Positions 32,427 through 37,138 of a stretch of 40,826 nt of DNA are shown piece by piece. The DNA is from Acidimicrobiia bacterium. GTDB lineage: Bacteria > Actinomycetota > Acidimicrobiia > Spongiisociales > UBA4744. The translations under genes and the position numbers were made by a program. Where the stretch lies: positions 1 to 40,826 of the forward strand of contig JANTGE010000003.1 of NCBI GenBank assembly GCA_024763085.1, written 5' to 3'. Each line of letters starts with the position of its first letter. Position 1 is the first letter of the stretch. The notes under the pieces were generated by a model that had not been told where the DNA came from, searched no databases, and was given only the letters and a program-made list of their open reading frames with translations.

Positions 32427-32450
32427 CCTCCACTACACTGGCCGTGCCCA

Positions 32451-32561
32451 CCTTCAGGGCAGGGTGCAATTCCCGACCGGCGGTGAAAGCCCGCGACCCC
32501 CGACTGGGGTTGATCCGGTGGAACTCCGGAGCCGACGGTGACAGTCCGGATGGAAGAAGGC
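32451..32561 (+). ncRNA. FMN (RFN) riboswitch
   Basis: TTCAGGGCAGGGTGCAATTCCCGACCGGCGGTGAAAGCCCGCGA...GGTTGATCCGGTGGAACTCCGGAGCCGACGGTGACAGTCCGGATGGAAGAAGG matches the RFN consensus throughout; directly upstream of rib genes. Confidence 0.97.
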
Positions 32562-32603
32562 GGGTGTCGTGCGTGCGCGCGCCCACCCACCAGAGAGGAC
32601 CAC

Positions 32604-35433: not shown

Positions 35434-35890
35434 GGTACAAGGAACCCCCGCGGGGAACGGTCTCCACGTCGGCGTCGTCGTCGCCGACTTCAACGCCTCG
35501 GTGACCGACGCCCTCCTGTCCGGAGCTCTGGAGGCTCTGGAACGACATGGGACCGACCGGGTCACCGTTGTCCACGTACCCGGGGCATGGGAACTGCCTC
35601 TCGCCGCGCAACGCCTTGCGGAGGGGGTCGATGCGGTGGTGGCCGTCGGTGCCGTGATCCTCGGGGAGACCGACCACTACCACCACGTCGCCACCCAGGC
35701 GATGGAGGGCTTGACCCGGGTGGGCCTCTCGGCCGGGAAACCCGTCACCAATGCCGTGCTGACCGTCCGCGAGTTTCGCCATGCGCAGGAGCGGTCGGAG
35801 CCGGGTCCAGGCAACAAGGGCTACGAGGCGGCCGAGGCGGCACTCGCCATGGTGTCGGTGCTGGAGCAACTCGACGGTTCCGCCTCCTGA
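35420..35890 (+). CDS. ribH: 6,7-dimethyl-8-ribityllumazine synthase
   Basis: [56 protein letters not shown]. Confidence 0.95.
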
Positions 35891-35896
35891 CCCGCG

Positions 35897-35924
35897 TTGA
35901 CACGGACCTGGCGGTCCGTATACT
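35897..35924 (+). promoter_or_regulatory. Sigma70-like promoter for infC-rpmI-rplT with palindromic spacer
   Basis: TTGACA - 16 nt - TATACT; the spacer is exactly CGGACC-TGGC-GGTCCG. Confidence 0.8.
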
Positions 35925-35928
35925 GCAT

Positions 35929-36045
35929 ATGACAACCCAGGCAAAGCGGAGGAAGCGCTCCCACCCGGCCACCGTAGAGGTGCGCCGAGGTCCCCGAAAC
36001 GGTGGCTTGCTTCGCGATGCCGCCGTTTTTCATAGGAGGAAGTGA
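35929..36045 (+). CDS. Candidate 38-codon basic leader ORF upstream of infC
   Basis: MTTQAKRRKRSHPATVEVRRGPRNGGLLRDAAVFHRRK*; TGA overlaps infC start region (GTGATC). Confidence 0.4.
   Translation: MTTQAKRRKRSHPATVEVRRGPRNGGLLRDAAVFHRRK
35997..36030 (+). terminator. Candidate attenuator terminator in the infC leader
   Basis: AAACGGTGGC (35997-36006)/GCCGCCGTTT (36019-36028), one G-U pair, followed by Ts (run of five T, 36026-36030). Confidence 0.7.
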
Positions 36046-36596
36046 TCGCAGAGCTACGTGTCAACGGCTACATCCGGGCGCCCAAGGTCCGGGTCGTGGC
36101 ACCCGACGGCAGCCAAGTCGGAATCAAGAGACTCGAAGAGGCCCTGTGGCTGGCCGACCAGCTCGGCCTGGACCTCGTCGAGGTGGCCCCCAACGCCGAT
36201 CCGCCCGTGTGTCGGCTCATGGACTACGGCCGGTACAAGTACGAACAGTCGGTCAAGGCACGCGAAGCCCGTAAGAAGCAGACGCGCAACATCGTCAAAG
36301 AGGTGAAGTTCAAGCCGAAAATCGGCGAGCACGACTACATCATCAAACGGAACAAGGTCATCCAGTTCCTCGAACAGGGCGACAAAGTGAAGATCACGAT
36401 CTGGTTCCGCGGACGGGAAGCCAGCCGACCGGAGCTCGGTCTGAAGATCATCGACCGGCTCGTCGAAGAACTCGGCGACCGCGCCAAAGTCGTGCAGGCG
36501 CCGAAGCAGGAAGGCCGCAACATGTTCATGGTGCTGGCACCAGGGAAGGTCGAAGAGTCTGGCGACGAAGCGATCACCGAAGAGGAGACCGAATGA
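36042..36596 (+). CDS. infC: Translation initiation factor IF-3
   Basis: IAELRVNGYIRAPKVRVVAPDGSQVGIKRLEEAL...FKPKIGEHDYIIKRNKVIQFLEQGDKVKITIWFRGRE. GTG 36042 or more likely ATC 36045. Confidence 0.95.
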   Translation: MIAELRVNGYIRAPKVRVVAPDGSQVGIKRLEEALWLADQLGLDLVEVAPNADPPVCRLMDYGRYKYEQSVKAREARKKQTRNIVKEVKFKPKIGEHDYIIKRNKVIQFLEQGDKVKITIWFRGREASRPELGLKIIDRLVEELGDRAKVVQAPKQEGRNMFMVLAPGKVEESGDEAITEEETE

Positions 36597-36787
36597 AACA
36601 AAAGACGCATCGCGGAGCCGCCAAACGGATCCGACGCACCGGGTCGGGGAAACTCGTCCGAGCGCGGGCAGGGCGCGGCCACCTGAAACTCGCGAAGAGC
36701 CGGAAGCGGTTCCGGCAGCTCAAGGGCTACACGGAACTCGCACCCGGCGACCGCAAGGTCGCCAAGCGCATGCTGGGAGGTAAGTAG
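36593..36787 (+). CDS. rpmI: 50S ribosomal protein L35
   Basis: MKQKTHRGAAKRIRRTGSGKLVRARAGRGHL. Confidence 0.95.
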   Translation: MKQKTHRGAAKRIRRTGSGKLVRARAGRGHLKLAKSRKRFRQLKGYTELAPGDRKVAKRMLGGK

Positions 36788-37138
36788 ATGGCCCGCGTGA
36801 AACGAGCCGTCCACGGACGGAAGAAGCACCGCAAGGTGATGGCCAGGGCGAAGGGCTACAAGGGAGCCAAGAGCCGCCGCTTCAAGACAGCCAACGAGCA
36901 GGTCATGCACGCGATGGCGGACTCATATGCCCACCGCCGTGCGCGCAAAGGGGAGTTCCGGCGCCTTTGGATCAGCCGTATCAACGCGGCTGCCCGGCAG
37001 AACGGCACCACCTACTCGAAACTCATGGCAGATCTGAAGGCGGCAGATATCGAGGTCGACCGCAAGATGCTCGCCGACCTCGCGGTCACCGATCCGGACG
37101 CGTTCCGCAACATCGTAGAGGCAGCAAACCGCGGCTGA
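36788..37138 (+). CDS. rplT: 50S ribosomal protein L20
   Basis: MARVKRAVHGRKKHRKVMARAKGYKGAKSRRFKTANEQVMHA. Confidence 0.97.
   Translation: MARVKRAVHGRKKHRKVMARAKGYKGAKSRRFKTANEQVMHAMADSYAHRRARKGEFRRLWISRINAAARQNGTTYSKLMADLKAADIEVDRKMLADLAVTDPDAFRNIVEAANRG

Follow-up and report, generated by a model that had tools for sequence, protein, structure and literature searches.

The window, a stretch of 40,826 nucleotides from the fragmented genome of an uncultured Acidimicrobiia bacterium (contig JANTGE010000003.1), contains a riboflavin operon with an FMN riboswitch. The last gene of this operon, ribH, ends at 35890 and is followed by a promoter, a leader and then infC, rpmI, rplT, a SpoU-type methylase gene and pheS. 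The FMN riboswitch itself (RF00050, 114 bits; 32446-32565, forward strand) lies ahead of the riboflavin genes that precede infC. The features of the leader and of the first three genes behind it are as follows:

35897-35924, forward strand: near-consensus sigma-70-type promoter (TTGACA-16-TATACT) upstream of the leader
35940-35946, forward strand: conserved 5' segment with the AAG box (AAG at 35944-35946)
35942-35992, forward strand: two-hairpin leader element, matched by models R1 and R2 (z -3.07)
35946-35956, forward strand: predicted 5' strand of the P1 antiterminator, pairing with 36005-36015
35948-35961, forward strand: P1 hairpin (35948-35951 paired with 35958-35961)
35963-35991, forward strand: P2 hairpin with an ACC/GGU base and single-nucleotide bulges at 35983 and 35988
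35968-35975, forward strand: GCCACCGT, part of the P2 5' strand and apical loop
35996-36030, forward strand: intrinsic terminator (stem 35996-36029, T tract 36026-36030)
36005-36015, forward strand: predicted 3' strand of the P1 antiterminator, within the terminator 5' half and loop
36034-36039, forward strand: Shine-Dalgarno sequence AGGAGG
36045-36596, forward strand: infC (IF3; IF3_N and IF3_C domains), with its start at ATC 36045 and not at GTG 36042
36593-36787, forward strand: rpmI (L35; Pfam L35p)
36788-37138, forward strand: rplT (L20; Pfam Ribosomal_L20, E 9e-41), the presumed regulator

In 62 of 63 relatives a -10-like hexamer precedes the AAG box, in most cases by 18-22 nt. In many relatives the hexamer is followed by a short ACAAYYGAG-like motif (for example, GACAATTGAG), which in the window lies at 35931-35942, near the expected transcript start.

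The start codon of infC is unusual. GTG 36042 is too near the Shine-Dalgarno sequence and is not conserved, and the start deduced from Shine-Dalgarno spacing and conservation is other than AUG, GUG or UUG in 62 of the 63 relatives (ATC in 59, ATA in 2 and ATT in 1), with the Shine-Dalgarno sequence at suitable spacing. The infC gene of Streptomyces has been stated to start with ATC and to take part in an IF3 feedback loop acting on non-canonical starts (PMC5472188). The window thus has an AUC start in common with the known IF3 autoregulation through non-AUG infC starts (AUU in Escherichia coli, AUC in Streptomyces; PMC5472188), and because infC starts at AUC, this loop probably acts here as well, independently of the leader element. 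A leader open reading frame (ORF) also spans 35929-36045 and overlaps infC via TGATC. The first-pass annotation had made this ORF a component of an attenuator; the ORF does exist, but such a role does not hold, since relatives lack it: no equivalent is present in the nearest relatives (L084-L086), and the ORFs found elsewhere differ in start, frame and length. A leader peptide was rejected, as the ORF is not conserved and has no Pfam match. One could imagine that translation of the ORF from or near the 5' end carries ribosomes through the terminator and that IF3, by disfavouring such starts, represses its own synthesis, as the position of ATG 35929 only 4 nt past the -10 hexamer and the TGATC overlap with infC might suggest. 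However, a transcription start 6-7 nt past the -10 hexamer would fall inside or just after this ATG, and together with the variability of the ORF among relatives this makes the scheme extremely improbable. The ORF is probably accidental.

The leader element is far better conserved. Its consensus in the infC upstream regions of relatives is CAAG-N-GGARGC-loop-GCUUCC-CACC-CGGC-CAC-loop-GUG-N-GCCG-N-GGUC, in which the AAG box reads AAG in 76 of 87 sequences and GAG in the other 11, and the CC/GG pairs that close P2 never vary (87/87). Both hairpins were recovered unaided by RNAalifold. Among 32 sequences, 97.6% of alignment cells are able to pair, and 7 pairs are doubly changed, compared with 2.8 in shuffles. 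In a broader set of 86 distinct sequences, double-sided changes occur in 14 of 17 pairs (5.5 in shuffles), and 97.3% of cells are paired as against at most 48% in slid controls, in an alignment that was fitted to the covariance model and hence favours the structure. Covariation across the clade, which the first-pass annotation had named as a check on its own proposal, is therefore strong for these two hairpins. In some members of family f2 (L117, L120, L124 and L129), P2 is a variant that does not fit the two-bulge form well.

A covariance model built from the window's order only (R1) scored the window element at 56.5 bits (E 1.5e-10), the sole match in its own genome. In a blind search of whole genomes (247 of the class, 71 of these from the order), R1 found the element before infC in 67 of the 71, usually with one match per genome. 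Two of the four misses have particular features: G047 (L111, identical in sequence to L007) does contain the element, with a long P2 loop, and in G010 (L133) the sequence is masked at the position of the element. Outside the order, blind R1 matches were obtained in 13 genomes of the phylum sample, reaching other actinobacterial orders and classes, and 9 of these 13 lie immediately 5' of infC; the matches in L154, L159, L164 and L165 lie away from infC and were treated as chance. A second model, R2, whose matches were placed by comparing their positions with mapped infC genes, gave new infC-leader matches in genomes that had not been used for training (for example, G335, G325, G302, G303 and G266). 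Many actinobacterial families had no model match in the phylum sample; at this search sensitivity, the element is common but not universal across Actinobacteria.

The Rfam model of the L20 leader (RF00558), described as a Firmicutes family, matched the control genomes of B. subtilis, L. lactis and T. maritima but not the window, either at the gathering threshold or up to E 5; it likewise gave no match in the window's own genome or in genomes of its order within the phylum sample. Direct Rfam assignment of the window yielded weak chance matches only (for example, Xoo2, 18.5 bits). In the phylum sample of 397 actinobacterial genomes, RF00558 matched 56 at E up to 0.001 and only one above the curated cut-off. 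Where infC was mapped in the RF00558-positive actinobacterial genomes, the match lies directly before it in every case (25/25). R1 recovers 18 of the 30 actinobacterial RF00558 loci, at the same stretch, and a residue-by-residue comparison at one of them (L193) puts the AAG, the helix of P1 and the ACC/GGU pairs at the base of P2 in the same register in both models. The window is thus linked to RF00558 through intermediates that both models recognise. Eight Firmicutes infC loci were also tried as bridges, and none of them matched RF00558.

In B. subtilis, the L20 site is formed by the junction of hairpins H1 and H2, and the terminator forms on L20 binding (PMC6097659; reviewed in PMC10931766). 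The AAG box (conserved in RF00558 too), an H1 hairpin (P1) and an H2 hairpin closed by CC/GG (P2, with its ACC/GGU base) are all found in the window in the order in which they occur in RF00558, and the window also shares with the Firmicutes leader its location 5' of infC-rpmI-rplT and an intrinsic terminator between the element and infC. The differences are that the window's order goes unrecognised by the Rfam model, that P2 is GC-rich with two single-nucleotide bulges, and that a predicted alternative pairing between P1 and the terminator and an AUC start of infC set the window apart. More generally, L20 sites combine an AA dimer with two consecutive G-C pairs (PMC7247131), a description matched by the AAG box on the one hand and the invariant CC/GG pairs on the other. 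The E. coli L20 operator (rpmI-rplT) and the Deltaproteobacteria L20 motif bind L20 through the same combination, whereas their scaffolds differ from that of the window, the E. coli operator being a pseudoknot plus hairpin that acts on translation (PMC10931766, PMC7247131); for the window, we infer the same ligand from its sequence. The first-pass annotation had considered the leader to be differently built from the L20 leader. This view can be set aside, as the 5' half shares the Firmicutes architecture and both models match the same nucleotides in other actinobacteria. Because R1 and RF00558 match the same stretch, and do so in register where they were compared, the leader in the window is most simply read as a divergent member of the L20 type, missed by Rfam.

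In the 23S rRNA of a relative, CUAAGUGGGAAACG, near what we take to be the L20 site (H40/H41), resembles AAG-N-GG; as the stretch searched contains nine AAG-N-GG sequences, this comparison serves as a lead only.

The terminator that the first-pass annotation described, with AAACGGTGGC (35997-36006) as the left arm pairing with GCCGCCGTTT (36019-36028) ahead of a run of Ts, is clearly present: the hairpin has a folding energy of -20.7 kcal/mol (z -5.3), and none of 200 shuffles was as strong. A terminator-like hairpin was found in 48 of 63 relatives, and the other 15 have no clear one, so the output may differ by lineage. Many of the leaders L118-L127 (mostly family f6) and L134-L136 (family f2) keep the sensor without a clear intrinsic terminator; their output may therefore be translational or Rho-dependent.

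As to the antiterminator, the same annotation had pointed to two 8-nt blocks, GCCACCGT (35968-35975) and ACGGTGGC (35999-36006). Their coordinates are right and they are perfectly complementary; their pairing would exclude both P2 and the terminator, and with its extension the duplex reaches -19.3 kcal/mol. On these grounds they could constitute the antiterminator of a leader built unlike the L20 leader, with the leader ORF taking part. However, a complementarity as long as this one arises in 3.4% of dinucleotide-shuffled leaders, and the helix never accounts for more than about 1% of the ensemble, whichever transcript length is folded. Even within the same family, relatives retain only 5 contiguous pairs, and over all relatives P2 gives no signal as a partner of the terminator (z 0.00; permutation 0.86). 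As the ORF assigned to this scheme is not conserved either, we regard the scheme as quite improbable, and GCCACCGT/ACGGTGGC was rejected as a conserved antiterminator. What stands of the proposed antiterminator/terminator pair before infC is the terminator and the existence of competing structures, with GCCACCGT/ACGGTGGC as a minor pairing.

The pairing supported by the comparison of relatives involves P1. The terminator 5' arm and loop are complementary to P1 with a mean z of -2.03 over 43 leaders, against 0.00 for the P2 control, and 0 of 10,000 permutations of P1/terminator pairs equalled the leaders' own pairs, a count that is optimistic owing to the relatedness of the leaders. Families f3, f4, f5, f7 and f8 carry this signal. 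Family f1, to which the window belongs, shows little or none of it, with a complementarity below that obtained with the P1 of other families (p 0.11 for the window), which renders the antiterminator less certain here than the sensor and the terminator. In folds of the window, the P1 antiterminator, which may be extended by pairing of 35940-35943 with 36018-36021, is the minimum-energy structure at transcript ends 36015-36027, and the terminator wins at 36030. Given the conserved pairing in five families, the fold of the window and the weak signal in f1, antitermination by the P1 hairpin is well supported as a class of mechanism, and the exact antiterminator of the window's species is a prediction of the folding model.

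Taken together, the computed results make it likely that this leader attenuates transcription of the operon in the manner of a divergent L20 leader. They comprise the conserved two-hairpin element, the terminator behind it, the operon itself, the coincidence in place with L20-leader matches and, across families, the complementarity of P1 to the terminator. In the transcript from the promoter at 35897-35924, P1 and P2 would fold first, together with the AAG box. At low levels of free L20, the left half of the terminator could be captured by P1 and the sequence on its 5' side; no terminator would then form, and RNA polymerase would read on into the operon. Surplus L20 would bind at the P1/P2 junction, the presumed L20 site, and keep P1 closed, which would free the terminator and stop transcription before infC; we infer this direction of response, like the ligand itself. 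A second, translational loop would run via the AUC start of infC, disfavoured by IF3. The operon also encodes IF3 and L35, and the element might instead bind one of these products, or another ligand, with the same terminator logic. We consider this unlikely, because the element coincides with the L20 leader in place and register, its invariant residues fit L20 sites (PMC6097659, PMC7247131) and a route of its own, via the non-AUG start codon, is already known for IF3 (PMC5472188). Of the two effectors named in the first-pass annotation, L20 and IF3, L20 is the better supported for the leader element.

The R1 element is also contained in Scr1601 (RF02830), which is filed as a Streptomyces sRNA, at L158:1469-1681 and L177:1185-1408, both from Streptomyces-like genomes. 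Scr1601 directly precedes infC at both loci, the latter of which was retrieved via its infC. It shares with the window the element, a terminator-like 3' end and the position before infC, whereas it is catalogued as an sRNA and is longer, with extra hairpins between the element and the terminator. Scr1601 has been reported as an expressed non-coding RNA in S. coelicolor, and its S. ambofaciens homologue was found in untranslated regions and not among the predicted sRNAs (PMC8388888). Scr1601 appears to be the infC leader, and a terminated infC leader would explain both observations.

According to a 2018 paper, the B. subtilis L20 RNA has a narrow distribution, within Firmicutes (PMC6097659), and the literature searched (openly licensed papers only) yielded no description of such a leader from Actinobacteria. 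The window leader shares the anatomy of the L20 leader and falls below the threshold of the curated model, and the action of L20 on it is suggested by sequence comparison. We see an even chance that one ancient family of L20 attenuators spans Firmicutes and Actinomycetota, with Scr1601 as the prematurely terminated infC leader and with an actinobacterial P1 that acts as antiterminator strand besides contributing to the L20 site, so that L20 binding and antitermination would compete for this hairpin. If so, L20 attenuation would be much wider and older, the Rfam L20_leader model would lose nearly all of a phylum, with a single genome above its cut-off, and a catalogued Streptomyces sRNA would gain a function testable in an organism that is easy to handle. 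The leader element would also stack with the probable IF3 start-codon loop, so that ribosome assembly as well as initiation would feed back on a single operon. A T-box leader (92.3 bits, cut-off 93) was additionally observed on the reverse strand at L193:654-887, the same locus as an L20 leader.
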